35,877 nt of DNA, taken from a virus. Under the pieces are notes generated by a model. That model saw only the letters and a program-made list of their open reading frames with translations. It made no database searches and was not told the origin of the DNA. The position numbers were made by a program, and so were the translations under genes. The number at the start of each line of letters is the position of its first letter. Within the stretch, counting starts at the first letter, position 1. Of the stretch, positions 2,066 through 27,037 are shown in pieces. Location of the stretch: positions 1 to 35,877 of the IMG/VR virus record IMGVR_UViG_3300024301_000040; one strand, written 5' to 3'.

Positions 2066-2074
2066 TACTTATAT
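2066..2074 (+). promoter_or_regulatory. Candidate late promoter for cassette 1 (TACTTATAT)
   Basis: TACTTATAT, the variant also found before cassette 2 (20741-20749). It lies 108 nt before the first gene of cassette 1, leaving room for a structured leader. It belongs to the TAYTTATAT family found before structural operons here. AT-rich background lowers certainty for any single site. Confidence 0.45.
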
Positions 2075-2182
2075 AAAAACTCATTGATTAGTATCTTTTA
2101 CTCAATGATTCCAATCGTTATCTCAACATAGTCTACATTATTAAGTTATTCAATTGTTACTTTAACAAAAAAGTATCATTAC
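2075..2182 (+). promoter_or_regulatory. Structured 5' leader of cassette 1
   Basis: Holds a perfect 7-bp inverted repeat (TCATTGA 2081-2087, TCAATGA 2102-2108, 14-nt loop) and a second hairpin (TACTTT 2158-2163, AAAGTA 2170-2175) ending 8 nt before ATG. The leader of cassette 2 has the same plan and a similar final segment (GTTACTT...AGTA). There is no T-run after the first hairpin, so it is not an ordinary terminator. It is probably a translational or stability element; the function is inferred. Confidence 0.45.
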
Positions 2183-2665
2183 ATGAGTGCTTTAAAGTTT
2201 ATAGGAATTTATCTATTCCTATTATGTGGGATTATTCATCAATCCCATTCACAAGAAATTAAAATAGGGGAAGTTACTAACGAAATTCGATTAGGTCCTT
2301 TCGCTGGTAATTCTAATCTTTCTATGGGAGTTCGTAATATATTAGAAGAACTCTTAATAGATTTAGATTATGATTTATGGGATGGTGCAGATACTCAAAT
2401 TAATATTCGTTTAGTCTTTTTTGATGTAAAGAATATTGGAAAAAGTATTGGTATCTATCATAACAAAGTTTCAGCAACTCAAATTATAGCAATTGGAGAA
2501 CTCCAAGAAGGAAAAAAAGTAAAGAAGAGAGTTACGAAAAAGGGAGTGAGTAAGGAGATATCAAACTCAACACTCGTAGTTGCATCCGATGGTAGTTTTA
2601 ACCAACAAACTGCCTCCAGTGCTTTAAAGAAAGTATTGGTTCAAATAGTTGAGGATTTACTATGA
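2183..2665 (+). CDS. Secreted cassette-1 accessory protein (CsgE-position, paired with 26639-27037)
   Basis: 160 aa with a signal peptide (hydrophobic residues about 7-20, then HSQ). I do not recognise a named family. It resembles the protein at 26639-27037: GVRNILEE here and GVRQITEE there, then DG, an I-x-V/I-x strand, K-x-I-x-(I/V)-G and a lysine-rich strand in the same order. Both sit at a cassette edge, first here and last in cassette 2. Small periplasmic proteins encoded beside CsgG in curli operons include CsgE, which gates the pore; that role is only a positional guess. Its stop overlaps the next start (ATGA), so translation is probably coupled. Confidence 0.6.
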   Translation: MSALKFIGIYLFLLCGIIHQSHSQEIKIGEVTNEIRLGPFAGNSNLSMGVRNILEELLIDLDYDLWDGADTQINIRLVFFDVKNIGKSIGIYHNKVSATQIIAIGELQEGKKVKKRVTKKGVSKEISNSTLVVASDGSFNQQTASSALKKVLVQIVEDLL

Positions 2666-4416
2666 AAAAAATTTTAACTCTTTTAGTATGTGTACTAAGT
2701 ACACTAAGTGTGTACTCACAAGAAATTAATATATCGTTAGATTATGCAGGGTTGATTAACGAACCTGTGCAAGGAGAAACAACACCAGTTACCGATTTGG
2801 AAATTGGTGATGAGTTTTATTTAGATATCACAATTGGTAATACCGATAACTCAGAAAGAATAGTGACTTATGCTGATATTTGGTTAACCTTTAAAAATGA
2901 TGCATTTGAATATTTGGGAGTTGATAATCCAAATACTAATGGTAACTGGTACACCAATCAATGGCCTTCATCTTATATCTTTCATAATTCAACTACCGCA
3001 GATGTAGATGATTTATATGGACAATATTACACCGACCATTATTGGGAATATGTAGGAGATGAAAACTCAGATGATGCTCCGATGGTAATAACTTCACAAA
3101 CAACAGGTGAATTGGATGGTGTTGTGGCAAGATTAAAGTTTAGGTATAAGCAAGTTCCAAACGGATTTGATTTTAATCAATCTACTATGCTAAGAAAGGC
3201 ATCGGTTAGAGATAATACTACTTCATATAACTTTACAAGTATTACCGCATTTCCAAATCAATCATTTGATAATGTTCCACCATCTACAACTGTGAGTGCA
3301 CAATTCAAAGTCTTATTTCCTGCTAGTTTAGACCCAATACTATTTGATGGTGGGTTATATACACCAGACCCAAATGAACCAAATAGTTGGTATCAGCCAC
3401 AATATGCAACATATGGAAATCTATCTTCAACTGGAACATTGGATATTACTCAAGGTTTTAATAGAACTGATGATTTTGCGGTAATTGTAAATTGGGATGG
3501 TTATGTAGTTGATACTGAAAATGGTGATTACACAATTCCATTCTCAGAACAATATGATGAGATTGTAACTATATCAGATGTTGCCCTTGCTTTCGCTGAA
3601 TTAAACAATGGTGGTATTGGTGGTAACGAAGTTGGAAATGAATTCAACTATGGTGTTCAATTTATGAATGCTGATGTTAACCAAGATGGTACATTCAATT
3701 CCGATGATACCTATCAGATGTTATTGCATGTAATTGAGGGTACGAGTTATTTAACAGACCCAGAAGCTATGGTTTATGCATCTAAGTTCTATCCAAAAGC
3801 ACAATATGATACGATAACAAATGAAAACTATCCTCAAATTGTAAATGGAACTACATTGATGACGGAGTTGGATAATAAGGATAACACCACATTACAATTT
3901 GATTTTGAAACAGCAATAACTTGGAGAGGTGATGTAAATCTATCACACTCTACCGAACCCGATGTTAGTGGAGCAGACCCTGCTGCGGCTCAACAAGCTA
4001 AAGAGTTTATTCCATCATATGCTAAGGCAACCAATAAAGAGGAAAGGCAGATATCTACTACATTAGTTACTGAATTAGTGGATGGTAAAGTTGTAGTAAC
4101 GATTACAATGGAACCAGGTACTCAAAAGGTGATTGGTGCACAATATAAACTTGGGTTTGATTCAAATCGATTAGTATTTGATGATATCAATTTTAAAACA
4201 AATAACACATCTACTAACTTTAGTAATCTAAAAGGTAATAATATTAATATTGGGTCATTAGTACAAATTCAAAATCAATTTTTGGATTCATCAACAAAGT
4301 ACACCTTAACATTTACACCAACAATCCAGTTACAAAACACATTAGGATTGGTTATTCTTTCAACAACTGATGCGGTTAACGCAAGAGGTGAACAACTTAA
4401 AATGAATATAGAATAA
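2662..4416 (+). CDS. Large secreted protein with cohesin-like and dockerin-like modules
   Basis: 584 aa. Signal peptide 1-20 (ends VYSQ). Residues about 22-200 look like a cohesin/Ig-type beta-sandwich (EIGDEFYLDITIGN, ADIWLTFKNDAFEYLGV). Two dockerin-like half-repeats follow: IVTISDVALAF (301-311) and a calcium-loop sequence DVNQDGTFNSDD (338-349). A further cohesin-like domain ends the protein (about 475-584; VVVTITMEPG, GAQYKLGFDSNRLVFDDI). In cellulosomes cohesin binds dockerin; both in one chain would permit head-to-tail polymerisation (inference). It has no C-terminal T9SS sorting domain of its own, unlike its counterpart at 20851-22782; a sorting-domain-like protein is encoded immediately downstream, overlapping by one base. 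It may be a phage-encoded surface fibre or adhesin. Confidence 0.7.
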   Translation: MKKILTLLVCVLSTLSVYSQEINISLDYAGLINEPVQGETTPVTDLEIGDEFYLDITIGNTDNSERIVTYADIWLTFKNDAFEYLGVDNPNTNGNWYTNQWPSSYIFHNSTTADVDDLYGQYYTDHYWEYVGDENSDDAPMVITSQTTGELDGVVARLKFRYKQVPNGFDFNQSTMLRKASVRDNTTSYNFTSITAFPNQSFDNVPPSTTVSAQFKVLFPASLDPILFDGGLYTPDPNEPNSWYQPQYATYGNLSSTGTLDITQGFNRTDDFAVIVNWDGYVVDTENGDYTIPFSEQYDEIVTISDVALAFAELNNGGIGGNEVGNEFNYGVQFMNADVNQDGTFNSDDTYQMLLHVIEGTSYLTDPEAMVYASKFYPKAQYDTITNENYPQIVNGTTLMTELDNKDNTTLQFDFETAITWRGDVNLSHSTEPDVSGADPAAAQQAKEFIPSYAKATNKEERQISTTLVTELVDGKVVVTITMEPGTQKVIGAQYKLGFDSNRLVFDDINFKTNNTSTNFSNLKGNNINIGSLVQIQNQFLDSSTKYTLTFTPTIQLQNTLGLVILSTTDAVNARGEQLKMNIE

Positions 4417-4772
4417 TGAAAAAGATATTTTACATATTACCACTTTTATTAGTGTTTGGATGTACTGCTGATTTGATGGAGGTTGAACCATATGGTAACG
4501 ATACTGAATTACATATGGATATTTTCGAAGTACAAAATACAGTTGTAAGTGATGGGGATGAGTTTATTATAAACTTCGATTCTAATGGTGAATATACATT
4601 ATCTTTAATAGATGATTTTACTAACATAACTTACACAAATGAAAAAGTTAATGGTAAAGCTGGTGTGAATTCATTACAAATTTACACTAAAGCATTACCT
4701 AAAGGGAGTTACAAATTTTTGGTTAAAGATAACCAAAGCAAAATCATTAAACAAACAATTATAAAATTATGA
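4416..4772 (+). CDS. Small lipoprotein resembling a free-standing T9SS sorting domain
   Basis: 118 aa. Signal peptide with a lipobox-like FGC (Cys16), so probably lipid-anchored. The rest (about 55-118) has the strand pattern of a type A T9SS C-terminal domain: GEYTLSLIDD, then LPKGSYKFLVKDNQSKII and a basic/hydrophobic end. The last 60 residues align by eye with the end of the cassette-2 fibre protein (LPNGMYLVRLV...KVYRIIKK). This suggests that the sorting domain is split off in cassette 1 and fused in cassette 2. Starts on the last base of the preceding stop codon and overlaps the next gene by 4 nt. The lipoprotein call is good; the sorting-domain likeness is tentative. Confidence 0.6.
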   Translation: MKKIFYILPLLLVFGCTADLMEVEPYGNDTELHMDIFEVQNTVVSDGDEFIINFDSNGEYTLSLIDDFTNITYTNEKVNGKAGVNSLQIYTKALPKGSYKFLVKDNQSKIIKQTIIKL

Positions 4773-5086
4773 GTAAAGAAGCAGAAAACAATGGTGGATT
4801 CTTTTCAAACATGAAGAATCAAATTGCAACTGGTGCTGGAGTTATCTTAACTGGTATCGGTACAATGTTTATGGATGAGGTAAAAACGTTCATTGGTATT
4901 GCGGATGAAGAAGATGAGAAAACTGAGCAGGTTGAGGTTAAGGCTGAACAAAATCAATCAGTTAATGTAACTGGACCTGAAATTATCATCAATATTCCAG
5001 AACAAAAACCAACAGAAACTAAAACAATTATTAAAGAAGTTCCGGTTAAGAGGAAAAAAGAAAAAGAGGAAGAAATAGATTGGTAA
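4769..5086 (+). CDS. Small membrane tether protein, cassette 1 (paired with 22795-23193)
   Basis: 105 aa, no signal peptide. A short N-terminal segment is followed by one hydrophobic glycine-rich helix (about 19-35), an acidic stretch, then IIINIPEQKP, KTIIKEVP and a lysine/glutamate tail. The cassette-2 protein at 22795-23193 has the same plan (helix, then VIINIPAQQ, RTIIRETVKEVP). Both lie directly upstream or nearly so of a CsgG-like gene. The conserved NIP/TII-EVP motifs after the helix suggest an inner-membrane protein reaching into the periplasm, perhaps contacting the pore. No known family recognised; role inferred from position. Confidence 0.6.
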   Translation: MSKEAENNGGFFSNMKNQIATGAGVILTGIGTMFMDEVKTFIGIADEEDEKTEQVEVKAEQNQSVNVTGPEIIINIPEQKPTETKTIIKEVPVKRKKEKEEEIDW

Positions 5087-5105
5087 ATCAATTAAATTAA
5101 ATTAT

Positions 5106-5339
5106 ATGAAAAAGTTTTTAAAATGGTGGAGAGTGTGGGGTCAAATATGGGGTTTCGTACTTCACATAACTTTACTGAATTTTATATTGTTAAATGATAA
5201 TATTCAATCGTATGCAAAAGATAATGAGTGGGTTGGTATTGGATGGATAGTATTGTTTTTTGGCGGAGCTATTTGGTATGCGTGGCAAAGTAAATTATAT
5301 GGATGGAGATTACCAAAAGATATTAAAGAAACACATTAA
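5106..5339 (+). CDS. Small two-helix membrane protein
   Basis: 77 aa with a basic, Trp-rich N-terminus (KKFLKWWRVWG) and two hydrophobic segments (about 12-30 and 43-60). It has no counterpart in cassette 2. It lies between the tether and the CsgG-like gene and is co-oriented with a short spacer, so it is probably co-transcribed. A holin-like role is possible from size and topology, but nothing specific supports it. Confidence 0.55.
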   Translation: MKKFLKWWRVWGQIWGFVLHITLLNFILLNDNIQSYAKDNEWVGIGWIVLFFGGAIWYAWQSKLYGWRLPKDIKETH

Positions 5340-5352
5340 ATATAAACAAAAA

Positions 5353-6069
5353 ATGAAAAAATTATTACTATTATTGATATGTGTATTTCTAACACAAATC
5401 ACCTTTTCACAAGTAGGAAGTATAAAAGCAGAAGAATATGTTGCAGAATTTGAAAAGAAAAAATCTATCGATGATGTTTCCGATTATGATGGGGATATGT
5501 TACCTGTTGCATTGCTCGATGTAGGTATCTCAGATGAGTTGTACGGAACTTATCCAGAGTTAAGGGATGGTAGAGTAGGATTGGGATTAACTAACATTGT
5601 AATCGAATATTTGGATTGGACAAATAGATTTGAGTTTGTAGAAGAAAAATCTACAATTAAAGATAGAATGAAATCACAATGGGTTGCATCTCGTAAGGGT
5701 GTATCTGAAAATAAAGTATATGGTGTGGGTAAGATTACTCTTGCTGAATACTTTGTAACGATTGAGATTTACGATTTCTCAGTTTCAGAAGATGAGGTAC
5801 TTTCTCTTAAAGACGGTTCTAAACAAACTTCTACAACTCGATTAGGATTGCAAGTTCGTTTTACTGATGCTGAGACTGGTAGATACTTAGTGGGGTCTGG
5901 TTTAGGGGATGCTAAGACTGTTAAAACTCAAGAAGGTTTAATTGGTTTAGATGTGGATGAAATCGCATTTAGAGAATCAGGTATAGGAGTTGCTACTCGT
6001 AAAGCATTGGAAACTGCTTCAGCGAGAATTGTGGCAAGAATGATTAAGAAGGGTATCTTCGAAAACTAA
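5353..6069 (+). CDS. csgG: CsgG-like outer-membrane secretion pore, cassette 1
   Basis: 238 aa from ATG at 5353, chosen because a clear signal peptide (MKKLLLLLICVFL...FSQ) begins there after an A-rich leader; an upstream in-frame start at 5260 would bury it. The mature part follows the CsgG fold order: RVGLGLTNIVIEYL then NRFEFVEE (helix and strand before the pore domain), YFVTIEIYDF, a strand with LQVRFTDAETGRYL (E. coli CsgG has LRVVNVSTGEIL), and a final helix with ATRKALETASARIVARMI. CsgG forms a nonameric outer-membrane channel that exports curli subunits. E. coli CsgG is a lipoprotein; this copy has no lipobox Cys, unlike the cassette-2 copy. Somewhat shorter than E. coli CsgG. Family call strong; substrate unknown. 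Confidence 0.82.
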   Translation: MKKLLLLLICVFLTQITFSQVGSIKAEEYVAEFEKKKSIDDVSDYDGDMLPVALLDVGISDELYGTYPELRDGRVGLGLTNIVIEYLDWTNRFEFVEEKSTIKDRMKSQWVASRKGVSENKVYGVGKITLAEYFVTIEIYDFSVSEDEVLSLKDGSKQTSTTRLGLQVRFTDAETGRYLVGSGLGDAKTVKTQEGLIGLDVDEIAFRESGIGVATRKALETASARIVARMIKKGIFEN

Positions 6070-6072
6070 TGA

Positions 6073-7422
6073 ATGAAAAAACTTCTTATAATATTATTTC
6101 TGATTATAAGTGGTTCAACTTATGCACAAACAACCTTTACTCAAACATTTGTAGATAGATGTACGGGAGAAGTAAAGGTTGTTACTGCTAACTTTGTAAA
6201 TGGTTCGGCTACTGTAGCATTTTATAATAAGATACGAACCTTTACTTATACGGAATTTACAAATGGTACATTAAACCAATGGTTGATTGAAACTTACGAA
6301 TGGTGGAATACATTATCACCATGTTCTCAATCAACTCAACAAGCACAACAAGCACAACAAACAGCCCAAAATGCTACTCAGGCGGCATCTACGGCATCTA
6401 CTGCTGCTTCAACTGCTACATCCGCAACAAATGGAGGGACAACAAATGCAACAAATCAAACAACAAATGAGGTTACTTCTACTGAGGGTACTGATACTAA
6501 TTCATCAAATTCAACTGAATCTAATGAGAGTGAAGGTAAATCAACGGAGAGTGAAGGAGGCGATGGTGAATCAACAAATGAAGAATCATCGGAAGAAGGA
6601 ACTGATGATGAGAATAGTTCAGATGATGGAGATGGAGAAGAATCTGAAGAAGTAGAAGAAGAAAAGAAAAAGAAGAAAACTGAAATGTTACCAATTCAAC
6701 TCAGAGCAGATATGATGGTTAATCAAGCTCTATTAGGTAACTATGATGCGGTAATATCATTTGGGGTAACCCAATCCTCAATCTTTGGAGATGTAACCTA
6801 TGGAGCAACTGCTATGATTTATTCTAATCTAAAACAATTTGCTCTTAATGGTTCTTATACCAAAGTTCACATGCAGAAATTTAATGTATCTCAATTAATA
6901 CATCAAGACCATTCACATTATGCAAAGGGTAGTGTTGTAACTACAAAAGACCCAATAACACCACCTCAACCTAAAGTATCATCAATTACATCCGCAAGTG
7001 TGGGATATATGAATAACTTTGGTAATGGTACAATTGTTGCTTCGGTAAACAAATTAAAACCAATGGGTAAGTGGGGAACAGCTGGAGTTGGTATAAGTAT
7101 GGTAAATATGTTTAGTGAGGGTAAGTATCAAATGACAATGTTAGGATATAACTTACTTTATACGAATATGGTTATGATATCACCTAGAATACAATATACA
7201 CCTGCATTCATTTGGACACAATCACCATATATGGGTAGGTTTGATTTACAAAATCAACTGAAGGGAACTCGGATAGATGGAATGGTGATTCTTGCAAATT
7301 CATTCACATTACAATTAACAAAAAGGTTCTCAGTTAATGTGGGAGCAACATTTATTAAATCTACAAACCCAATCATACCACTTATCAAATCTTTTATGAT
7401 AGGTACAAAACTACCTTTTTAG
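6073..7422 (+). CDS. Cys-module / acidic low-complexity linker / outer-membrane beta-barrel protein, cassette 1
   Basis: 449 aa. Signal peptide ends YAQ (19). The mature N-terminus TTFTQTFVDRCTG begins a module of about 55 residues bounded by Cys30 and Cys84. A linker (about 85-205) runs Gln/Ala/Thr, then Ser/Glu/Asp-rich, ending in a Lys run (KKKKK). The remaining ~240 residues alternate polar and hydrophobic residues in strands with aromatic girdles, as in an outer-membrane beta-barrel, and end in PF, a typical barrel C-terminus. The protein at 23926-25446 has the same architecture with a Gly/Ser linker. Follows the CsgG-like gene by 3 nt in both-copy order. E. coli CsgF, which plugs CsgG with its mature N-terminus (TFQF...), is a possible functional analogue; not proven. 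Confidence 0.7.
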   Translation: MKKLLIILFLIISGSTYAQTTFTQTFVDRCTGEVKVVTANFVNGSATVAFYNKIRTFTYTEFTNGTLNQWLIETYEWWNTLSPCSQSTQQAQQAQQTAQNATQAASTASTAASTATSATNGGTTNATNQTTNEVTSTEGTDTNSSNSTESNESEGKSTESEGGDGESTNEESSEEGTDDENSSDDGDGEESEEVEEEKKKKKTEMLPIQLRADMMVNQALLGNYDAVISFGVTQSSIFGDVTYGATAMIYSNLKQFALNGSYTKVHMQKFNVSQLIHQDHSHYAKGSVVTTKDPITPPQPKVSSITSASVGYMNNFGNGTIVASVNKLKPMGKWGTAGVGISMVNMFSEGKYQMTMLGYNLLYTNMVMISPRIQYTPAFIWTQSPYMGRFDLQNQLKGTRIDGMVILANSFTLQLTKRFSVNVGATFIKSTNPIIPLIKSFMIGTKLPF

Positions 7423-7423
7423 A

Positions 7424-7432
7424 TATTTATAT
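7424..7432 (+). promoter_or_regulatory. Candidate late promoter (TATTTATAT)
   Basis: TATTTATAT lies 17 nt before the ATG of the 78-aa gene, directly after the cassette-1 stop codon. Member of the TAYTTATAT set that may be read by the gp55-like sigma factor. Confidence 0.5.
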
Positions 7433-7449
7433 AAAATAAAGAAATCACA

Positions 7450-7686
7450 ATGAAAGAATACGCAGTACAAAAACAATTAGTAGCAGTTGATACAAACGCT
7501 GGAGACCCTAATTGGGCTAAAAGACAAATATGGGTTTATAAACTAAACGCAGAAGATACGTTAGATGAATATGATACTATTGAAGAAGCTCAATCTAAAA
7601 GAGATGAGTTGGATAATGAGGACCCATCTGCAAGAGTTTATAGAGTAGTAAGAAGAATTGATAAATTCTCTTATGAAGTGCTTTAG
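7450..7686 (+). CDS. Hypothetical small soluble protein
   Basis: 78 aa, charged, no signal peptide or membrane segment. Family not recognised. It reads as a compact alpha/beta protein (YAVQKQLVAVDT, RVYRVVRRIDKFSYEVL). A late-type promoter directly upstream and a non-coding gap downstream suggest a single-gene late transcript. Confidence 0.6.
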   Translation: MKEYAVQKQLVAVDTNAGDPNWAKRQIWVYKLNAEDTLDEYDTIEEAQSKRDELDNEDPSARVYRVVRRIDKFSYEVL

Positions 7687-7703
7687 TTGTCTTGTCTAAA
7701 TTT

Positions 7704-7844
7704 TTATTTTAATTTATTTCTTATAAACAGTTTAAACAGTGTCTTGTCTTGCACCGTGTCTCTGTTGTCTGAAGATTCAAAAATAAAAAATGTATCTGAA
7801 CCAACAATCGTTTCTGATTGAAGTTTGGAAGCGTTTAAACTCAT
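7704..7844 (-). CDS. Possible 46-aa minus-strand gene in a 318-nt gap
   Basis: The gap 7687-8004 has no plus-strand gene. On the minus strand an ATG at 7844 opens a 46-codon frame (MSLNASKLQSETIVGSD... ending IRNKLK). It is preceded by AAGGTGAAGCT, which resembles a Shine-Dalgarno site and is unusual in this window, and by a weak promoter at 7902-7871. Codon choice (several GAC, ACG, CTG) differs from neighbours. It could instead be a small RNA or decayed sequence. Low confidence. Confidence 0.3.
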   Translation of the reverse strand: MSLNASKLQSETIVGSDTFFIFESSDNRDTVQDKTLFKLFIRNKLK

Positions 7845-7870
7845 AGCTTCACCTTAGAGTATGTTATTTC

Positions 7871-7902
7871 AGTATATATAGATATACCCCAGTTTCCCCA
7901 AA
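7871..7902 (-). promoter_or_regulatory. Weak host-type promoter on minus strand
   Basis: TTTG at 7902-7899 and TATATACT at 7878-7871 with exactly 20 nt between, the same spacing as the well-matched promoters here, but the -7 box departs from TATATTTG. It points at the possible 46-aa gene. Confidence 0.3.
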
Positions 7903-7953
7903 CGATAAAAAAAAATCAAATAATTTCACATTTAGTAAATTTAGTTGAAAAGG

Positions 7954-7985
7954 CTTGGAACTCTCAATTATTTTTTGTATATTTG
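7954..7985 (+). promoter_or_regulatory. Host-type promoter for the DUF1599-dCMP deaminase operon
   Basis: CTTG at 7954-7957 and TATATTTG at 7978-7985, 20 nt apart, ending 19 nt before the ATG at 8005. Four genes follow with overlaps or very short spacers. Confidence 0.7.
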
Positions 7986-8004
7986 TTCATAAACATTAAA
8001 TAGT

Positions 8005-8367
8005 ATGAGCGAAGAAACACCACAATACGGAGAATCCGCAGTTGAATTTTGTGAGAGAATGTATCCCAACACAACGGATGAATTCAAAAAGATTCAAGAA
8101 GAAATGTATATCACCTTTTGTAAGAAGCAAAGGAACTACGGACCTGGTAACATTTCAGTAGGAACTCCATTGGAAACTGATGATGATGTGAAACTATCCT
8201 TAACTGGTTTATGGTTTCGTATCAACGATAAAGTGCAACGATTAAAACAATTGGTAGTATTAGGACAGCCCGATGAAGTGGGTGAATCAATCCAAGATAC
8301 TTATGAAGATTTATCAGTATATGGTATCATCGCACAAATTGTTCAACGAGGAAAATGGGCAAAATAA
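8005..8367 (+). CDS. DUF1599 / Nmad1-type nucleotide-modification-associated protein
   Basis: 120 aa. The C-terminal two-thirds fit DUF1599: CKKQRNYGPGNIS, then LWFRINDKVQRLKQL and a Asp/Glu-rich helix DTYEDLSVYGIIAQ. The family is all-alpha and occurs in phages near DNA- or nucleotide-modification genes; a MazG-like nucleotide-binding fold has been proposed, but its reaction is not established as far as I know. First gene of an operon with a metallophosphoesterase and dCMP deaminase, which supports a nucleotide-pool role. Confidence 0.72.
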   Translation: MSEETPQYGESAVEFCERMYPNTTDEFKKIQEEMYITFCKKQRNYGPGNISVGTPLETDDDVKLSLTGLWFRINDKVQRLKQLVVLGQPDEVGESIQDTYEDLSVYGIIAQIVQRGKWAK

Positions 8368-8501
8368 AATTTGAAATATGTTCAGTATGGGGGCAGATGT
8401 ATATCTTACCCTTTGTGAAGTTAACACACAATAGAAATCTGAATGGTGATTTAGAACTCATCATTGGTTGGTTAAACAAAGAATTAGTAATAGGAATTTA
8501 G
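8355..8501 (+). CDS. Small hypothetical protein overlapping the DUF1599 gene
   Basis: 48 aa from ATG at 8355 (MGKIKFEICSVWGQMYILPF...), overlapping the upstream gene by 13 nt and ending 2 nt before the metallophosphoesterase ATG. It fills a gap otherwise empty in a compact operon, which is the main reason to accept it. No family recognised. Confidence 0.45.
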   Translation: MGKIKFEICSVWGQMYILPFVKLTHNRNLNGDLELIIGWLNKELVIGI

Positions 8502-8503
8502 TT

Positions 8504-12829: not shown

Positions 12830-13312
12830 ATGAATAAAAAAATAGTTTATATCGATATGGATGGAGTCTTAGTTGACTTAACTCATGCGATAAATCAATG
12901 GTTTCTAAATCATCCTCATTTGTATGAACGATACAAAGAAAACCCCGACCATATAGCTGGTATCTTCCGAAACCCACCTCCAATTAAAGGTGCTATCGAA
13001 GCTGTAAAGAAATTAGCTGAGAGTGGTAAGTATGAATTGTATATCGCTACTTCTGCTCCTTGGGGAAATCCCGAATCACTAACTGATAAAAGATATTGGA
13101 TTGAGAATCACTTCGGTGAATTATTCCACAAACGAATCGTTACTACTCACCAAAAAAATATGTTGATGGGTGATTACCTAATTGATGATAGAAAGAAAAA
13201 TGGAGCTGGTGAGTTCAAAGGTGAGTTGTTACAATATGGATTGGATTGGGAAAACGATAATAAACCAAACGAATATCCAAATTGGGAATCAATTTTAGAA
13301 AAACTACTATAA
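12830..13312 (+). CDS. 5'(3')-deoxyribonucleotidase-like HAD phosphatase (NT5C type)
   Basis: 160 aa. HAD motifs: DMDGVLVD (9-16; nucleophile Asp9, acid Asp11), ATSAPW (73-78), Lys109 and LIDDRKKNG (117-125). This arrangement matches the NT5C family, which removes phosphate from deoxynucleoside monophosphates; in a phage it may tune dNMP pools or salvage host DNA. Its stop overlaps the lipoprotein start (TAATG). The upstream leader carries AAACCCTTAAA. Confidence 0.82.
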   Translation: MNKKIVYIDMDGVLVDLTHAINQWFLNHPHLYERYKENPDHIAGIFRNPPPIKGAIEAVKKLAESGKYELYIATSAPWGNPESLTDKRYWIENHFGELFHKRIVTTHQKNMLMGDYLIDDRKKNGAGEFKGELLQYGLDWENDNKPNEYPNWESILEKLL

Positions 13313-13869
13313 TGAAATTGTTACGAGGATTACTAATACTGATATTGGGAATTGCGTTTGTAAGTTGTGAAGATAATGTTATTGAGCCAATTCCAACATA
13401 TACCTTATCAATTGATTCACTTTTAACTGAAGATGGTTCTCAATCATTATTCATTGATTCAAACGGATACTATCGATTAACATTGGATAGTTTATCAGAA
13501 AATAAACAAACTGTTCGTAGAATTACTGGTATAGTTTTAAAGGATGAGATGGAACCAACACCGTCTGAATTAGTTGAGTGGGAATCATCTCACAATTGGG
13601 TTACTGGTGATAATAATGAATCTTATGTTGTACGAAGTACTATAAACGTATTAGGAGAATGGGTTGTAATCGATACGATTCAACTAAATATACCAGCTGG
13701 TCTTATTGTACCAACTGTTAATTCATCATCATATAGTGGAACCAATGGTGAGATAAATACAATGATTGCACCAATCTACGATATGAAAGGTGATACAATG
13801 ATTGTTACCGCAAGAATGTGGACAGAATATAAAACATATTACGATACACTTAAAGTTATATTAGAATGA
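13312..13869 (+). CDS. Predicted lipoprotein of unknown function
   Basis: 185 aa from ATG 13312, chosen because it begins a lipoprotein signal (MKLLRGLLILILGIAFVSC, Cys19, then ED) and overlaps the previous stop. The mature part looks beta-rich with a fibronectin/Ig-like pattern (YTLSIDSLL, YRLTLDSLS, WVVIDTIQLNIPAG, DTMIVTARMWTEYK). Sandwiched in an enzyme operon behind a host-type promoter, so probably made early. Early phage lipoproteins often block superinfection or adsorption; that role is a guess here. Confidence 0.65.
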   Translation: MKLLRGLLILILGIAFVSCEDNVIEPIPTYTLSIDSLLTEDGSQSLFIDSNGYYRLTLDSLSENKQTVRRITGIVLKDEMEPTPSELVEWESSHNWVTGDNNESYVVRSTINVLGEWVVIDTIQLNIPAGLIVPTVNSSSYSGTNGEINTMIAPIYDMKGDTMIVTARMWTEYKTYYDTLKVILE

Positions 13870-19694: not shown

Positions 19695-19726
19695 TTTGGA
19701 AAATTGAAATATTTTTCGTATATTTA
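19695..19726 (+). promoter_or_regulatory. Host-type promoter for the late sigma factor operon
   Basis: TTTG at 19695-19698 and TATATTTA at 19719-19726, 20 nt apart, 16 nt before ATG 19743. It places production of the late sigma factor under host-polymerase control, as expected for the early-to-late switch. Confidence 0.65.
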
Positions 19727-19742
19727 CATTATCTTTTATATT

Positions 19743-20006: not shown

Positions 20007-20009
20007 ATT

Positions 20010-20735: not shown

Positions 20736-20740
20736 CATAA

Positions 20741-20749
20741 TACTTATAT
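20741..20749 (+). promoter_or_regulatory. Candidate late promoter for cassette 2 (TACTTATAT)
   Basis: The same TACTTATAT variant as cassette 1, 101 nt before ATG 20851 (108 nt in cassette 1). Confidence 0.45.
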
Positions 20750-20850
20750 TTAGATAAATTAGGAAACACTACAAATTCCTAAAACAGTTCCACCAATTAC
20801 TTCAGTTTTATTAATAGGTTATAGTTACTTAATCAAAGAGTAATTATCTT
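20750..20850 (+). promoter_or_regulatory. Structured 5' leader of cassette 2
   Basis: Perfect 7-bp hairpin (TTAGGAA 20759-20765, TTCCTAA 20776-20782, 10-nt loop) and a second hairpin (TTACT 20825-20829, AGTAA 20839-20843) ending 8 nt before ATG, as in cassette 1. The first hairpin has entirely different bases from that of cassette 1 but keeps 7 perfect pairs, as expected if structure matters. Confidence 0.45.
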
Positions 20851-22782
20851 ATGAAACGATTTTTATTAGGCCTGATACTAATGTTACCATTTGTGTCTTA
20901 TGGTCAAAATGGGGCTAATGAAATACTTACAGCTCCTAACTCAAACTCTCCACACATTCTTGTGGATACTCTATTTACTTTAGAGCAAGATATTTCGGTA
21001 GGTTACACCGAAATTTATTTACACTACGCTAACCCAACACTATCCGATATATTCTCAGCTGTTCAGTTCAGAATCTTCTATGATAATACATCATTCACAA
21101 CTCCTGAGATTTATTGGGGACCAACTGCTACTCCGATTACGGATAAGTATGGTTCGTACTTCGCTAATTCCGATTATGTGAATGTTATCGCATCTTATAC
21201 AGGTACGAATAGTGGATTTGATTGGGCAGATGGGGCAATGTTCAAACTAAGATTGTATCACACAACTACATATGATGGTGTTGTAGATTCAATCGCAGTT
21301 GCTGGTTCAACAACTTACAACAACTTAGCAACTACAACTTCTGGTTTAGATGTTCCATTAGCAATGCACAATTATGGTGGTAATTTCCAAATGGATACCT
21401 TAGAGTTCCCAATCATCGCAAGAAACGCAGATGGAACTCCAGCACAAGGTATGTGGTTTACCGCTCAGAAAAGATTAAAATCAGATGTTTCTGGTTTATG
21501 GACTCCAATCGGAACTGATTCAACAAACTCAAATGGGTTGTTCGTTGTACAAGACCAATTGGATACTGCATTTTGGAATTTAAGAATAACCGCACAATCG
21601 GATACGATGAGTGATGGATTCGCATTATCCGTAACTGATGCATATAAATTAGCAAACCAATCTTCTCAACAAGACACACTTTCGGGAATCGAATGGTACG
21701 CTGGTGATATCAACGAAAGTAACGATGTAACCATTTCAGATGCATTCGCAATGTTCAATAGATTGGCATTACAATCTACAACTTGGACATCCTTATTTAG
21801 TGGTGTGAACAATGTGGCAATCTTATGGCCAGATGAGTACACATCAGCATTAGCAGCAACCGCATCTCCAACTTGGACAAACACTCCAAGAGTTTATTCA
21901 ATTGATACAATCGTAAACTCAATGGATTCACTTAAACCTTACATATATGTAGTGGGTGATGCAACTACAACTGGATACAACAACCCTGGTGTGTTAGTTG
22001 CTAAAATGGCTGACCCTGGTATTGGAACTGATTACATCTTAGACCCAGCGGTGTATCTTTCTAACAAACCTGATACTGTTGAATTTAGAATTCCTAAGTT
22101 AACAATGACAGCTGATAATAAGATGAGTGTACCTGTAACTCTTTACACATTTGGTAACCAATTAGGTGCAATTCAAATGGGTATTGAATTCGATACTGCA
22201 ATCTTTAGATTTGAATCAATCGAAATGGGAGAAGCAACATCAAAGTGGACTTCAGTTCTTTCGGTTGAAAAGGGAAAAGTATTTTGGGCTGGACACGAAG
22301 ATAGATTAAACCCCTCATTGGTTGATGATATGACAACTCAGTTCACTTTCAACTTTGAGGTAATTGACCCATTGGGTTGGAATCAATCACCACTAAAAAT
22401 AGTTGAAAAAATGGCAGGTGATAGATATGCACAAGATGTTAGTGTTAAGCCTTCACCAAATGATGGTTCAGTTGTTAATAGAACCTCAATAGACCCTGAA
22501 TTAGATTTAATGATGAATGGATTCAAAGTTTATCCAAACCCAACAACTGAATTAATGGGACATTGGATTGTATTTGAATACCATACATATTTGGATGATG
22601 GTAATATTAACGCAATGGTTTACGATATGAATGGTAGAGAAGCTATGAGATGGTCTGACAAGATTTATCAAAGTGGTTTCCAATTCCAAGGTTTCACAAT
22701 GGAAAACTTACCAAACGGAATGTATTTGGTAAGATTGGTTACGGCTGATAGAGATAAGGTTTATAGAATTATTAAAAAGTAA
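20851..22782 (+). CDS. Large secreted cohesin/dockerin-like protein with T9SS C-terminal sorting domain
   Basis: 643 aa. Signal peptide to about 19 (VSYGQ). Cohesin-like sandwich about 38-180, an Ig-like segment about 185-255, two dockerin-like half repeats (SVTDAYKLANQ 260-270 and DINESNDVTISDAFAMFNRL 286-305), a second cohesin-like domain about 424-545 (MSVPVTLYTFGNQLGAIQM). The last 87 residues form a type A T9SS sorting domain: VYPNP at 560-564, NAMVYDMNGREAM, LPNGMYLVRLV and the basic end KVYRIIKK. T9SS moves such proteins across the outer membrane and attaches them to the surface. The phage would borrow the host T9SS; none is seen here. Counterpart of 2662-4416. Confidence 0.82.
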   Translation: MKRFLLGLILMLPFVSYGQNGANEILTAPNSNSPHILVDTLFTLEQDISVGYTEIYLHYANPTLSDIFSAVQFRIFYDNTSFTTPEIYWGPTATPITDKYGSYFANSDYVNVIASYTGTNSGFDWADGAMFKLRLYHTTTYDGVVDSIAVAGSTTYNNLATTTSGLDVPLAMHNYGGNFQMDTLEFPIIARNADGTPAQGMWFTAQKRLKSDVSGLWTPIGTDSTNSNGLFVVQDQLDTAFWNLRITAQSDTMSDGFALSVTDAYKLANQSSQQDTLSGIEWYAGDINESNDVTISDAFAMFNRLALQSTTWTSLFSGVNNVAILWPDEYTSALAATASPTWTNTPRVYSIDTIVNSMDSLKPYIYVVGDATTTGYNNPGVLVAKMADPGIGTDYILDPAVYLSNKPDTVEFRIPKLTMTADNKMSVPVTLYTFGNQLGAIQMGIEFDTAIFRFESIEMGEATSKWTSVLSVEKGKVFWAGHEDRLNPSLVDDMTTQFTFNFEVIDPLGWNQSPLKIVEKMAGDRYAQDVSVKPSPNDGSVVNRTSIDPELDLMMNGFKVYPNPTTELMGHWIVFEYHTYLDDGNINAMVYDMNGREAMRWSDKIYQSGFQFQGFTMENLPNGMYLVRLVTADRDKVYRIIKK

Positions 22783-22794
22783 CATTAATTTATT

Positions 22795-23193
22795 ATGAAA
22801 GAAGAAATCAAAGAAGGAATGAGTTCCTTAAAGAAAGGTATCATTGGTTTGGCTGGAACAATGGTTGCAGCTGTTGGTACATTTGTAACTACTCAATTCA
22901 ATTCAATATTGGGTATTGAAGAAGAATCGGATGCTCCAACTGAGTTGGTAGTGCCTGTTGAGAATAATAATTTCAATAGTAATGAGAATAACAACTCAAA
23001 CACTAACACTCAGAATCAGAGTGTAATTATTAACATTCCTGCTCAACAAGCTCCTGCTCCTACGAGAACAATCATCAGAGAAACTGTAAAGGAAGTACCT
23101 GCTGCACCTGTTGAAGTGGTAGAAGAGAAGCCAGAAACTCCAATGGAAAGAATGGCTAGATTGAAGAGAGAAAGAGCAGAAAAAAATAAATAA
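22795..23193 (+). CDS. Small membrane tether protein, cassette 2
   Basis: 132 aa, counterpart of 4769-5086. Amphipathic start, a glycine/alanine-rich hydrophobic helix (about 15-31), an Asn/Glu-rich linker (NNNFNSNENNNSNTNTQNQS), the shared VIINIPAQQAP and TRTIIRETVKEVP motifs, then a Pro/Glu stretch and a basic end. Immediately upstream of the CsgG-like gene (2-nt gap). Probable inner-membrane anchor with a periplasmic tail; partner unknown. Confidence 0.6.
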   Translation: MKEEIKEGMSSLKKGIIGLAGTMVAAVGTFVTTQFNSILGIEEESDAPTELVVPVENNNFNSNENNNSNTNTQNQSVIINIPAQQAPAPTRTIIRETVKEVPAAPVEVVEEKPETPMERMARLKRERAEKNK

Positions 23194-23195
23194 TT

Positions 23196-23936
23196 ATGAG
23201 AACGAGAAAAGATGTAATTTTAGAATGGACAGTAGCACCTTTGATGCTCATCCTTACTGCTTGTGCTTTAGTATTCGTTGGTACATTCGCAACCTCATGT
23301 TCTTCATCAGTTGGTGTGGTTCAATACCAAGCTGATTTTGAGAAAGCAGAACCATTGAATACTATGCCACCTTTTACAGGTGAGAAACAAATTGTTCAAT
23401 TATCAAAACTTAACGTAAATAAAGAACTTTGGGAAATGTTCCCTGAGTTGAGAGATAAGAGAGTTGGTTTAGGTGTATCTAATAGAATCATTGAGAACTT
23501 TGAAATGACTCAACGATTCTCATACGCTGAAGAAAAGGAAGCCATCCAAAATCAAATGTTAGATGCTTGGGAAGCCGAACTCAATGGAATGGGTGATGGA
23601 CAAACTGAGTTAAAGATGGAGGGTATTGCTTTACCTAAGTACATCGTATATGCTGAGATTTATGATTTCGCAGTATCATATGGTGAAAATTATGTAAGAG
23701 GTAAATCAGAAATAACTAACACTACTATTATGGGTATCCAAATCAGAATGGTCAATGTAGATAACTCACAATACATCGTAGCGAGTGGACAGGGAACTGC
23801 AACTCAAGTAGGTGAGGGATTCTTCAAAAATCCTCAAATGGGATTTGATAATTCTACTGTTGGTATTGCTACCCAACGTGCGTTAGAGGTTGCTACGGTA
23901 AACCTTGTTAAACGTATGGAAGCATATGGATGGTAA
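23196..23936 (+). CDS. csgG: CsgG-like outer-membrane secretion pore, cassette 2 (lipoprotein form)
   Basis: 246 aa. Longer hydrophobic leader (about 12-32) with a lipobox-like ATSC (Cys35), so probably lipid-anchored like E. coli CsgG. The conserved core repeats that of cassette 1: WEMFPELRDKRVGLGVSN (cassette 1: YGTYPELRDGRVGLGLTN), QRFSYAEEKEAIQNQM, YIVYAEIYDFAVS, IQIRMVNVDNSQYIVASG, and VGIATQRALEVATVNLVKRM. The two pores are clearly related but well diverged. Ends inside the next gene (11-nt overlap). Confidence 0.82.
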   Translation: MRTRKDVILEWTVAPLMLILTACALVFVGTFATSCSSSVGVVQYQADFEKAEPLNTMPPFTGEKQIVQLSKLNVNKELWEMFPELRDKRVGLGVSNRIIENFEMTQRFSYAEEKEAIQNQMLDAWEAELNGMGDGQTELKMEGIALPKYIVYAEIYDFAVSYGENYVRGKSEITNTTIMGIQIRMVNVDNSQYIVASGQGTATQVGEGFFKNPQMGFDNSTVGIATQRALEVATVNLVKRMEAYGW

Positions 23937-25446
23937 GAAATGGTTAATAGTATTATTACTTCTTATAGGGTTTAAGGGTTTTGGACAATCGTTCCAATAC
24001 ACTTATGTTGACCCTTGTACGGGTGTTCCTAATACTGTAACTATTTCACAACCTTCAGGTTCGGTAACTCTTTTTTACGCAGGACAATATCAAAACTTTA
24101 CAGCAACCCAACTTCAGACCGGTGGTTATGAGGCTTGGGTTGCTTCTATTAATGCCGCATCTCCTCCCGGTTCAAATCCTTGTGCTGGAAATGCTGGAGT
24201 AGTAAGTGGAACAACCTCATCAGCGGTTGGTACGAACGTAACTAATACTGTAACTAATATAACTGGTGCGTTAGCCACATTAGGTTCATCAACATCCGGT
24301 GGTTCTTCATCTGGTAGTTCATCATCTTTATCTTCTTCAAATAGTGGAAGTTCTTCATCTGGTGATGGTGGTGGTTCATCCAACGATAACACTGGTACTT
24401 CATCTGGTGATGGTGGTTCATCATCTTCTGGTAGTGGAGATACTGGTGGAGGTAGTGGTGGTAACACTGGTGGTGATACTGGAGGTTCTGGTGGTTCATC
24501 TGGTAGTGGAGATAGTGGAAGTGGTTCTACTGGTGGAGGTTCATCAGGCGGAGGTTCTGGTGGTTCTGGTGGAGGTGGTGATTCCGGCGGTGGTTCTTCT
24601 GGTGGGGGAACTGGTGGTGGTTCTTCTGAAGGCGGACAATCTACTGATGGTGGTGGAGCAACTTCCGATGGGGATGGTGGTTCATCAAGTGGTGGTGCTA
24701 TTGGTGATAAAGATATTGATGCAGAATCGGGCGGCCAATCATCTGATTCCGAAGATGACTCCGGTGGTGGAGGTGGTGGGAAGAAAAAGAAAAATGGTGC
24801 AAGAGCAAGAAAGGGTTCTTTGATTGCAAGTGGTGATATGGTAGTTGTTCGTAATGGTTCAGATTATAAAGAAAGTGGTAACGATAACCTTAAATTTAAT
24901 ATGGGTGTTACTTGGGCAAATACCGAACAAACAATTACCGCTGGTGGGTTGTTGAATTACACAACTGGACAAAATGAAATATCTCTAACGGGATATGGTT
25001 CTTTTAAGATTGAGGAATCAATGATTATTGCATCTAATTCGTTCCTTTATAATGTATCTCAAGAAACTTGGTTCAATACGGGCAATGTGATGTACGCATT
25101 TAAACAAAGTAAGTATCTAACTACATTAATGGGAACAAACTTTTCAGTAGGTCAATTGGGTGATGAAACATTCTCAAATTGGGCAGCAAATGTTGGTACA
25201 TTCACTACCTTTAATGGATATAGAGGATTTGCGATGAACCTTATGGGAATTGCAATGTACTCACCTTATACTTTCTTCTATGAAGGACAATGGTTCAAAG
25301 GGGGATTCCTTTTTGTACCTCTAACAAGTTTCGATTTTAATGTTACAAAAACCTTTAAGTTTAACATATCTACCTCAACTGTATATTTAATGGGTGAGGG
25401 TATATTAAACTTTCAACTAATGACTGGTACGAAGATGTTGTTATGA
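23926..25446 (+). CDS. Cys-module / Gly-Ser linker / outer-membrane beta-barrel protein, cassette 2
   Basis: 506 aa from ATG 23926, where a signal peptide starts (MDGKKWLIVLLLLIGFKGFGQ); an upstream start at 23905 only adds part of the CsgG gene read in another frame. Mature N-terminus SFQYTYVDPCTG; Cys31 and Cys86 bound a 54-residue module (53 residues between Cys30 and Cys84 in the cassette-1 copy). A Gly/Ser linker of roughly 190 residues follows, then KKKKNGARARK, then about 200 residues of beta-barrel-like strands. The linker composition differs entirely from cassette 1 (Thr/Ser/Glu), while the ends are alike, so the linker is probably a flexible spacer. The N-terminus resembles the CsgG-binding start of CsgF (TFQF); not proven. 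Confidence 0.7.
   Translation: MDGKKWLIVLLLLIGFKGFGQSFQYTYVDPCTGVPNTVTISQPSGSVTLFYAGQYQNFTATQLQTGGYEAWVASINAASPPGSNPCAGNAGVVSGTTSSAVGTNVTNTVTNITGALATLGSSTSGGSSSGSSSSLSSSNSGSSSSGDGGGSSNDNTGTSSGDGGSSSSGSGDTGGGSGGNTGGDTGGSGGSSGSGDSGSGSTGGGSSGGGSGGSGGGGDSGGGSSGGGTGGGSSEGGQSTDGGGATSDGDGGSSSGGAIGDKDIDAESGGQSSDSEDDSGGGGGGKKKKNGARARKGSLIASGDMVVVRNGSDYKESGNDNLKFNMGVTWANTEQTITAGGLLNYTTGQNEISLTGYGSFKIEESMIIASNSFLYNVSQETWFNTGNVMYAFKQSKYLTTLMGTNFSVGQLGDETFSNWAANVGTFTTFNGYRGFAMNLMGIAMYSPYTFFYEGQWFKGGFLFVPLTSFDFNVTKTFKFNISTSTVYLMGEGILNFQLMTGTKMLL
24280..24790 (+). repeat. Low-complexity Gly/Ser-coding tract
   Basis: About 500 bp of irregular repeats of GGTGG, TCATCT and GGTAGTGGA units coding the Gly/Ser linker. 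Repetitive and GC-richer than surroundings; prone to slippage and assembly error. Long open frames seen in other frames here come from this composition only. Confidence 0.8.
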
Positions 25447-26642
25447 TACGATGGTTGAAAATTTTATTGTTGTTTCCAATAGGTTTGTTTGCACAAAACA
25501 TTACCTTTGCTACTGTTGGTGTTCAAGATATGAGTGGTATCGAAGTAACGGTAATTCACTCACAACCGGGTGGAACGATTGGTAGTATAACTCAAATGAC
25601 AAATGGGATACCTTCGGATAGAGGTCAAGGTACATCTACAATATTCTCAACTACCAATTCAGACCAAGGTTCGGTAATAGTAAACATCCCATCGGGGTAT
25701 CAACCGTCAATTGGAGGAACAACTTACTCAACGGGTAAACTCCACGCTAATGCTTGGATGGCATTTCCAACCACAACCTATAATAGTTATAATAGTTCAG
25801 CATCTGCGCCAAATGTACCCACTCTACACTTTACTTCCGTTAACAATGGCTCTACGGATAATAATATGTCGCATGTATCTACTGAAACTTATAATGACCC
25901 ATCATTAGGAGATGTATTTAGAATTAGATATGAAGGAAGTTACAAGTATAATGTGACCGGTATCAATACAAAGATTGATATTTACTTTACTAAAAACAAC
26001 AACGAAGAAATATTAGTAGTACTCAGACAATTCCTTGCTGATGGTTCTAATATAGAACAAATAGGATTATCAAATGGTTCAAGTTGGATAGCCAGTAATT
26101 TGATAAGTAGTGGTAACTATACCAACGGACAAGCGTGGTTGATTGAAAACAATGTTCAACCTGGTATAAGTGATACATTAGCAACTCAAACTACAACATT
26201 AACTGGTACTGTTTCATTTTCTAATCCCAATAACTATGATTATGAAGTAATTGTTGATGCTTCTAATATGGTAAATACATTCACACAATCTGAAATGAAT
26301 TACCTTGCATATCTTAGGATGTTCCCCAATGAAATCTCATCGTGGGATTATCACACAATGAACTTCTATGAACCCGATAGTTCGGATATTGTAACTTATT
26401 CGGATGTATTTTCTGCATATCAAATTTATAATTTGGGACAACTCTTTAATTACACATACAATCATAACTATGTTTATTCACAATCGGAAAAGGATGATGT
26501 TGAAGTAAACGCTAATAGTTTAACTTATCACTTAAAATATCCAAAATCTGCGGTTAGAACTTTTAACAATTTGGATAGGTTTTATATCGTTTCTTTGGGA
26601 AAACACCGAAGGACAGTTAACTCAAATACTATAACACAATGA
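25443..26642 (+). CDS. Secreted protein with a dockerin-like motif, cassette 2
   Basis: 399 aa. Signal peptide ends LFAQ (18). Beta-rich, Ser/Thr/Asn-rich body with no named family. Residues 313-330 (SSDIVTYSDVFSAYQIYN) match the dockerin-like half repeat of the two large cassette proteins (IVTISDVALAF; DVTISDAFAMF). The end is basic (GKHRRTVNSNT) and lacks a clear T9SS domain. ATGA overlaps on both sides. May be a minor subunit that docks on the cohesin-like domains; inferred from the motif only. Confidence 0.65.
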   Translation: MIRWLKILLLFPIGLFAQNITFATVGVQDMSGIEVTVIHSQPGGTIGSITQMTNGIPSDRGQGTSTIFSTTNSDQGSVIVNIPSGYQPSIGGTTYSTGKLHANAWMAFPTTTYNSYNSSASAPNVPTLHFTSVNNGSTDNNMSHVSTETYNDPSLGDVFRIRYEGSYKYNVTGINTKIDIYFTKNNNEEILVVLRQFLADGSNIEQIGLSNGSSWIASNLISSGNYTNGQAWLIENNVQPGISDTLATQTTTLTGTVSFSNPNNYDYEVIVDASNMVNTFTQSEMNYLAYLRMFPNEISSWDYHTMNFYEPDSSDIVTYSDVFSAYQIYNLGQLFNYTYNHNYVYSQSEKDDVEVNANSLTYHLKYPKSAVRTFNNLDRFYIVSLGKHRRTVNSNTITQ

Positions 26643-27037
26643 ATACAATAGTATGCTATTTCGTAGCAAGTGTAATCTCACTTGCATCTCTTAAAGGAAT
26701 TCCTGAAGAGAAATTTACCTTTGGTGTAAGACAAATCACCGAAGAAATCGTTGGACAATCTGCTCCATTATGTGAAGATGGTTCACCAATCTATGTTACC
26801 GTTGAATCAATCAAAGCACCAACCAAAGGAATTCAAGTTGGACCATTTAAGTTCAAACAAAAGAAAACTTTAGTAACAGTAAAAGTTGTGAAAGATGGTG
26901 TTGAAACAATTGGCATAGGTTCAGCAAAGATGAATGTATCGGCAACACTTCTTCAACTTCAAGATGAGAACTTACCATTTGAACAAACCGAATTTTCAGT
27001 TGCAATGAAAAAGGCAATTGAGGATGCGATGAAGTAG
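26639..27037 (+). CDS. Cassette-2 accessory protein (paired with 2183-2665)
   Basis: 132 aa with a weak signal peptide (about 3-17). FGVRQITEEIV, CEDGSPIYVTVESIKAP, KGIQVGPFKFKQKKT and VKDGVETIGIG parallel the first gene of cassette 1 in order and spacing. Single Cys at 44. Last gene of cassette 2. No known family; position beside CsgG-like genes suggests a periplasmic partner of the pore. Confidence 0.6.
   Translation: MNTIVCYFVASVISLASLKGIPEEKFTFGVRQITEEIVGQSAPLCEDGSPIYVTVESIKAPTKGIQVGPFKFKQKKTLVTVKVVKDGVETIGIGSAKMNVSATLLQLQDENLPFEQTEFSVAMKKAIEDAMK

Follow-up and report, generated by a model that had tools for sequence, protein, structure and literature searches.

The DNA analysed here (the window) is the 35,877-base virus record IMGVR_UViG_3300024301_000040 of IMG/VR, in which two multi-gene cassettes, each containing a gene for a CsgG-like protein (D), were investigated. 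Neighbouring genes recognised with PHROGs, a helicase and two baseplate-wedge proteins, indicate a tailed phage with a baseplate; its host group is Bacteroidota, and a near-identical phage available as a longer record (G001, 47,287 bases) has both cassettes. As the first-pass annotation of this sequence had indicated, both cassettes lie on one phage genome as open runs of genes on the same (plus) strand. Cassette 1 (A1-B1-X1-C1-D1-E1, 2183-7422) adjoins the helicase, and cassette 2 (B2-C2-D2-E2-F2-A2, 20851-27037) is located a few genes ahead of the baseplate genes. The order B-C-D-E is common to both, with A having moved, in agreement with the earlier statement that order is kept for four of five paired components. 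Judged by eye, every cassette product starts with a signal peptide, a lipobox or a membrane stretch. The genes are as follows.

A1, 2183..2665, plus strand: small secreted protein of the accessory family, putative remote relative of the CsgG fold; profile pair of A2, signal peptide by eye.
B1, 2662..4416, plus strand: large secreted protein with a dockerin-like repeat and a cohesin-like end; profile pair of B2.
X1, 4416..4772, plus strand: small lipoprotein (lipobox by eye) that may represent a sorting-domain-like fold split off as a protein of its own; cassette 2 lacks a corresponding gene.
C1, 4769..5086, plus strand: inner-membrane tether by eye, with a single hydrophobic segment near the N-terminus and a polar tail that contains the NIP motif.
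D1, 5353..6069, plus strand: CsgG-like protein; the frame is also opened by a TTG at 5260.
E1, 6073..7422, plus strand: Cys module, low-complexity linker and a C-terminal part called barrel by analogy with E2 only.
B2, 20851..22782, plus strand: cohesin protein ending in a sorting domain for type IX secretion.
C2, 22795..23193, plus strand: inner-membrane tether of cassette 2; BLASTP and profile pair of C1.
D2, 23196..23936, plus strand: CsgG-like lipoprotein (lipobox by eye), modelled with AlphaFold2.
E2, 23926..25446, plus strand: Cys module, helix, Gly/Ser linker of about 170 residues and a predicted 12-stranded outer-membrane barrel (AlphaFold2 model).
F2, 25443..26642, plus strand: secreted protein in a variable slot behind E; relatives have lectin-type domains, none of which was matched in F2.
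A2, 26639..27037, plus strand: accessory protein of cassette 2, putative remote relative of the CsgG fold.

Pairing of the components was assessed with BLASTP, with wide profiles and with narrower trimmed profiles compared by hhalign together with reversed-sequence controls. D1 and D2 are 36% identical (BLASTP E 1e-44) and reach an hhalign probability of 100%, against 2.8 and 2.1% for the reversed controls. The N-terminal Cys modules of E1 and E2 (BLASTP 5e-9) reach 98.7% (controls 0.2 and 0.4%), and C1 and C2 (BLASTP 4e-9) 98.5% with E 3.6e-15, although here a reversed control rises up to 66% because of composition. For B1 and B2, between which BLASTP found no match, wide profiles gave 99.4% (E 1.8e-21, 494 columns) and narrow profiles 73% (control 0.1). 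A1 and A2 are linked by a BLASTP E of 0.017 and by profile values of 95.1% (E 3.4e-8) and, when narrow profiles are used, 63.5%, against 2.1 and 0.9% for the reversed controls; the A1 seed also retrieves the A2-type protein of another locus (L010) at 1e-5. Trimmed profiles with reversed controls were used for C and E instead of iterated ones, since iteration pulled in reversed decoys (23 with the C1 seed, 8 with C2, 0 with E1 and 30 with E2). The top cross-component values obtained with narrow profiles, 69% and 48%, were both between E modules and B over 18-19 columns and were read as shared signal peptides. Judged from these comparisons, the five proposed pairs appear to hold for D, C, the Cys module of E, B and A, with the composition caveat for C. 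The barrel half of E is excluded: between the C-terminal parts of E1 and E2 no relation was detectable with hhalign (2.2%, control 0.7). At the DNA level, cassettes 1 and 2 are not joined by any long repeat, and the direct repeats are mostly linker-coding or promoter-like.

The description of D as CsgG-like survives through a predicted fold and through bacterial intermediates, but not through a direct profile match. Neither D1 nor D2 was matched by the Pfam CsgG model (PF03783), to which 0 of 22 family members responded at E ≤ 1, and CsgG was returned for D neither by PHROGs nor by a profile search of PDB sequences. The CsgG profile match that the first-pass annotation had named beforehand as the test for 5353-6069 and 23196-23936 was therefore obtained from neither Pfam nor the PDB profile search, so that, taken literally, the refuting outcome named there did occur. 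Searching PDB sequences with a bacterial relative of D (L122) gave a single, chance-level match (E 0.52). Thirteen relatives of D were found on genome contigs, and nine of the ten that were scanned (L116, L118 and L125 were not) exceed the Pfam CsgG cut-off; the tenth, L117, does not exceed it and shows the phage gene order. In a chain of profile comparisons, phage D is connected to bacterial D (E 1.2e-51) and bacterial D to true CsgG (92.8%, E 3.9e-7), whereas phage D compared directly with true CsgG reaches 10.8% (E 0.0029), yet with 192 columns aligned. An AlphaFold2 model of D2, built from a 46-sequence alignment (pLDDT 73.1, pTM 0.60), has CsgG as its top PDB match in Foldseek (E 1.6e-7), the outcome looked for in the structural check proposed at the outset, and superimposes on it with Z 13.9 over 174 residues at 3.8 Å, the next non-CsgG entry having Z 10.4. 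We regard the CsgG fold of D as well supported by the model and the bacterial intermediates, which alone carry its kinship with CsgG. The A and D families, for their part, merge in iterated profile searches with zero reversed decoys, and comparison of D with A2-type proteins gave 73% (E 3.1e-5), narrow profiles giving just 0.7 and 19.7%; A is probably a smaller, remote relative of D.

A CsgG fold raises the question of whether D works as CsgG does, that is as a true outer-membrane secretion pore through which B, F or the linker of E would be exported. Export through the phage's own pore had been suggested in the first-pass annotation, and it would agree with CsgG being the best structural match (188 residues aligned to the membrane-bound form), with the lipobox of D2 seen by eye and with the existence of true phage curli. 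However, the two segments that we take to be the transmembrane hairpins of CsgG are shortened in D: in 35 phage rows, hairpin 1 measures 28-29 residues against 34 in E. coli CsgG and hairpin 2 measures 34-38 against 46, while the CsgG proteins of the phages HTVC008M and Melnitz have segments of 34 and 47 residues. The hairpins of phage D are also rich in charged or polar residues, although a shorter hairpin could still insert in the membrane. Nor did the eight profiles compared (A, B, C and the E module of both cassettes; F and X were not compared) reveal a curli partner: the best probability was 11.4% for CsgF and CsgE, the latter represented by one E. coli sequence, and 3.5% for curlin. The label "curli-type" is dropped on this account. 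Since, in addition, B2 bears a different export signal and the predicted barrel is protein E, export through a pore of D is unlikely.

It is E2, not D, that is predicted to be the membrane barrel of the cassette. The AlphaFold2 model of E2 shows a small N-terminal module, a helix (90-123), about 170 residues of mostly very low confidence and 12 long strands (298-504), with a pLDDT of 84-92 in 16 of the 21 ten-residue blocks from 301 onward. Its fold search is led by outer-membrane barrels and autotransporter translocators, the best being the NalP translocator (Z 19.0), and also contains the amyloid exporter FapF (Z 14.1); at the level of a model, such barrel matches say nothing on function. 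A CsgG fold without the long CsgG hairpins is known from PelC, which works with a separate barrel, PelB. PelC entries match the D2 model with Z 8.6-10.1, below the 13.9 of CsgG, and the hairpins of D are of intermediate length; unlike the PelC setting, the window contains no recognisable exopolysaccharide genes.

The cohesin and dockerin partners suggested earlier could be retained in part: B2 exceeds the Pfam Cohesin cut-off by a small amount (24.9 bits, cut-off 24.1), but Dockerin_1 in B1 stays below its own (17.0 bits, cut-off 22.9). Cohesin was matched at E ≤ 0.01 in 3 of 16 B1-type proteins, B1 itself being unmatched. The C-terminus of B2 carries a type IX (type A) sorting domain, recognised by NCBIfam TIGR04183 (33.2 bits, cut-off 23) and less clearly by Pfam Por_Secre_tail (24.9 bits, under the cut-off of 27), and such a domain is present at E ≤ 0.01 in 50 of 51 B2-type proteins. 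On this basis B2 is probably exported by the host's own type IX system and not by a phage pore. In cassette 1, the X1 profile aligns with the sorting region at the C-terminus of B2 (E 0.0017, at only 15.5% probability), and Cys16 of X1 is invariant across 17 rows.

Of the 22 members of the F family, 10 have a Lectin_C domain, 3 have PA14 and 2 have Laminin_G_3. Diversity-generating retroelements are known to act on C-type lectin folds, and lectin domains occur in phage receptor-binding proteins. The latter, together with the proximity of cassette 2 to the baseplate genes, could suggest that virion or adsorption proteins have been misread here as envelope proteins. The starts of the cassette products (signal peptide, lipobox or membrane stretch) fit the envelope and not a virion, and these features, together with the type IX tail and the outer-membrane barrel, are unfit for assembly in the cytoplasm, making a virion role highly improbable. 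When ten cassette proteins (all but E2 and X1) were compared with a defence-system library, only weak matches resulted, three in number (E 0.0037-0.0049): A1 was matched once, at its start, and E1 twice, within its low-complexity part or close to it.

The set of genes around D is widespread. Among viral contigs, single queries found 21 loci (D2) and 12 loci (D1), while an alignment of these revealed at least 587 relatives among 600 candidate stretches, the best 80 being retained. Neighbours were counted from 71 distinct phage D proteins (immuto, described below, included; a few near-identical), 52 of which have at least 4 kb upstream and at least 6.5 kb downstream. Beside these 52 D genes, E was found at 52 loci, A at 51, B at 50 and C at 48, with all four present at 48 and an F-type gene downstream at 30. 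Two copies of D were found in 2 of the 28 records searched whole (G001, which is the same phage, and G024) and one copy in the other 26; as many records are fragments, a single copy is no proof that a second is absent. A cultured phage with one cassette is immuto (genus Immutovirus, NC_055915; record G021), which forms a cultured phage-host pair with Flavobacterium sp. LMO8 and in which D was found once. Its cassette comprises a lectin-annotated gp013, gp014 and gp015 (jointly B2-like), gp016 (C), gp017 (D), gp018 (E) and gp019 (A), with gp014 and gp016-gp019 annotated as hypothetical; no paper on immuto itself was found in the literature search.

Phage D appears to be a lineage separate from the published phage curli, since CsgG and D queries find different phages. 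Among 50,697 phage records, E. coli CsgG retrieved seven, belonging to Pelagibacter and Methylophilales phages plus a 1.5-kb Salmonella record, with immuto absent, while D1 and D2 retrieved immuto isolates only, D1 being 55% identical to immuto gp017. The first-pass statement that CsgG genes occur in marine myophages was right (PMC7029224, PMC9599517, PMC9004378), but it concerns the different, true-CsgG lineage: in HTVC008M and Melnitz, CsgG shares 37-40% identity with the E. coli protein, has full-length hairpins and stands beside CsgF and curlin-type genes. The Salmonella record (OR851715.1, 1,499 bases, filed as a Salmonella phage) encodes a protein 95.7% identical to E. coli CsgG over its whole length and is probably host DNA.

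The two cassettes of the window also differ in their history. A tree of 51 D proteins (midpoint root, some long branches) keeps two clades apart, one of 11 rows with D2 (support 100/99) and one of 26 rows with D1 and immuto (100/100), both clades containing records in which a single D was found. The separate, old clades indicate that the cassettes were combined from two old phage lineages, so that the proposal of a cassette duplicated in this phage had to be given up; a recent duplication of one cassette is ruled out by the D tree and by the low identity. G024 is collinear with the window and carries both cassettes. In G008 and G009, two records of one phage kind, the flanks of cassette 2 are kept and four genes without a match to the window stand in its place. 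With cassette 2 replaced between the same neighbours, it acts as an exchangeable unit, and its site may be a hot spot of gene exchange. The replacement genes of G008 are located at 9298-12108 of contig stretch L133, one of them starting, by eye, like a response-regulator receiver.

Comparison with G008 gave 95% identity for D1 (over aligned residues), 82% for A1 and 80% for C1 (both full-length), against 30% for B1, 34% for X1 and 40% for E1, the median of 33 other shared genes being 68%. In the comparison with G024, the corresponding values are 85% (D2), 77% (A2), 68% (D1; 77% over aligned residues), 67% (C1), 66% (A1) and 65% (C2) on the one hand, and 74% (B1), 62% (X1), 58% (E1), 64% (B2), 51% (E2) and 66% (F2) on the other, with a median of 72% for 33 other genes. 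The A, B, C, D and E genes stay side by side at most loci, and the proteins of exposed type are the most variable in sequence, a trend that is weaker against G024 than against G008.

A TonB-dependent receptor is located next to cassette 1. It is cut by the left edge of the window (1-480, minus strand), the whole gene being present in L022 (2384-5128, minus strand, 914 aa), and its domains are CarbopepD_reg_2, a Plug and a barrel. This neighbour allows a further explanation, in which nutrient uptake would be aided by surface lectins and cohesin proteins that capture polysaccharide for the receptor. In favour of it, the receptor is intact beside cassette 1 in this phage, G024 and G008/G009 have it in the corresponding position, a receptor is near a cassette in L159, L160 and L209, and a phage SusC has been proposed to increase carbohydrate uptake (PMC9723777). 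However, the two are seldom found together. Receptor relatives are encoded in 124 viral-contig stretches, and among 80 receptor loci only 6 have D in the flanking sequence that was fetched; D is present, once each, in 5 of 23 long records chosen for the receptor gene; and of 21 long D-containing records a single one has the CarbopepD form of the receptor (G003, scored as a miss, encodes a relative without that domain). The receptor as a fixed part of the cassette system is ruled out by this low co-occurrence and, no enzyme having been recognised in the cassettes either, we consider the uptake explanation quite unlikely.

Other features of the window concern regulation and gene content. A TTTGTATATTTGT-like motif is found upstream of genes at 517-530 (minus), 626-639 (plus), 7973, 11736, 12130, 12775, 17162 and 19714, and points in both directions in the interval that separates the receptor from the helicase; these sites are perhaps promoters, the motif being only weakly above chance. 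A Bacteroidota-type promoter consensus was matched 4 times where 2.1 matches would be expected (17 of 100 shuffles gave as many), and a looser motif 11 times where 5.9 would be (4 of 100 shuffles). A lipoprotein-like gene at 13312-13869, with a Cys after a hydrophobic start (by eye) and no Pfam match, is among the less conserved shared genes (44 and 46% against two sister phages).

As for a bacterial origin, D relatives were found near a second CsgG-like gene on ten genome contigs (L115, L119-L127), six of which look chromosomal by eye; contigs with such pairs come from KSB1, Chitinispirillum, Desulfo-type and other bacteria. In L115 and L123, D is followed by a gene whose product, by eye, begins with a module, continues with a linker and ends in a barrel; the barrel of L123 exceeds the OMP_b-brl cut-off and the L115 gene has no Pfam match. 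The phage E-module (Cys) profile does not detect these bacterial barrel genes, so that their likeness to phage E is by eye only. Hairpin 2 of bacterial D measures 17 residues (median of 8 rows), with 34 in L115. We know of no function for such CsgG-like gene pairs. An operon of this kind is a possible source of the phage system.

The nearest systems in print share some of these traits. The curli (type VIII) of pelagiphages and of methylophage Melnitz likewise comprise several phage envelope genes, including one of CsgG-type fold, and have been proposed to serve superinfection defence, sibling capture or lysis (PMC9599517, PMC7029224, PMC9004378). The last of these uses might apply to the cassettes too, as a lysis or outer-membrane disruption device in which the tether C, a ring of D and the barrel E would open the envelope at the end of infection. 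An inner-membrane tether combined with outer-membrane parts would amount to a spanin-like layout, and the CsgGF pore of Melnitz, proposed for this purpose in PMC9004378, is a precedent. Nevertheless, no role in lysis is known for the cohesin, type IX and lectin parts, the cassettes sit by the helicase or ahead of the baseplate genes, and immuto has a separate annotated endolysin; a lysis device is very unlikely. Type IX cargo encoded by phages was reported for Cryophage, where it varies between variants and where effects on inter-strain competition or superinfection were suggested (PMC7468147), and gut phages have sorting-domain proteins near BACON genes (PMC6949934). This cargo and the cassettes have in common sorting-domain phage proteins, variable cargo and the PA14 domain. 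The set of CsgG-like platform, tether and barrel is not described for the Cryophage or gut-phage cargo in the accessible text, and that of Cryophage does not mention CsgG or cohesin. Literature searches on CsgG or curli in phages, phage type IX secretion and phage TonB receptors, outside subscription journals and preprints, showed no paper that describes the gene set of the cassettes. Curli of phages, their type IX cargo and a SusC-like receptor encoded by a phage have each been published; the combination, with its non-curli CsgG-like core and two versions in one phage, was not found in these searches.

Taken together, the explanation that we favour, with a probability of about 0.5, is that the cassettes encode a phage-built envelope platform on the infected Bacteroidota cell, displaying variable adhesin-like proteins. 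The infected cell would build an envelope assembly from the cassette genes, in which D and A would be periplasmic ring parts beneath the outer membrane, C would tie these to the inner membrane and E would be the membrane-inserted part. B (in cassette 2 via the host type IX export) and F would be displayed on the surface, and the outcome would be an altered surface of the infected cell. Its likeliest use may be to exclude competing phages, or to hold cells and progeny together, as the changing surface parts fit superinfection exclusion and clumping better than lysis control or nutrient binding. As the two cassettes stem from two old phage lineages, a genome with both would provide the cell with two distinct coats.

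Several observations weigh against such a platform. The confidence of the D2 model is only moderate. B1 showed no match to a type IX sorting domain, so that cassette 1 may bypass type IX export, and X1 is a weak candidate, judged from its profile, for a substitute sorting domain of B1. F2 matches no lectin or other Pfam model. The contrast between core and surface proteins is weaker in the comparison with G024, where B1 is off-trend and A1, C1 and C2 (65-67%) are no better conserved than B2 and F2. Finally, the C and E labels in the neighbour counts rely on profiles that also recruit reversed decoys, and there the position of the genes adds to the evidence.

More tentatively, and at somewhat less than even odds, the cassettes can be viewed as a non-curli envelope machine which phages acquired from a bacterial operon (paired CsgG-fold proteins plus a linker-barrel protein) and which uses the host type IX system for exchangeable lectin or cohesin coats, some phages carrying two versions and two coats. 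The cultured pair of immuto and Flavobacterium sp. LMO8, which has one copy of the cassette, makes the purpose of these phage envelope genes testable by gene removal. A word of caution follows for annotation, in that not every phage CsgG-like gene stands for curli. If the favoured explanation is true, many Bacteroidota phages would do more than lyse their host: before lysis they would remodel its surface by means of a conserved multi-protein platform and of surface parts that change fast.

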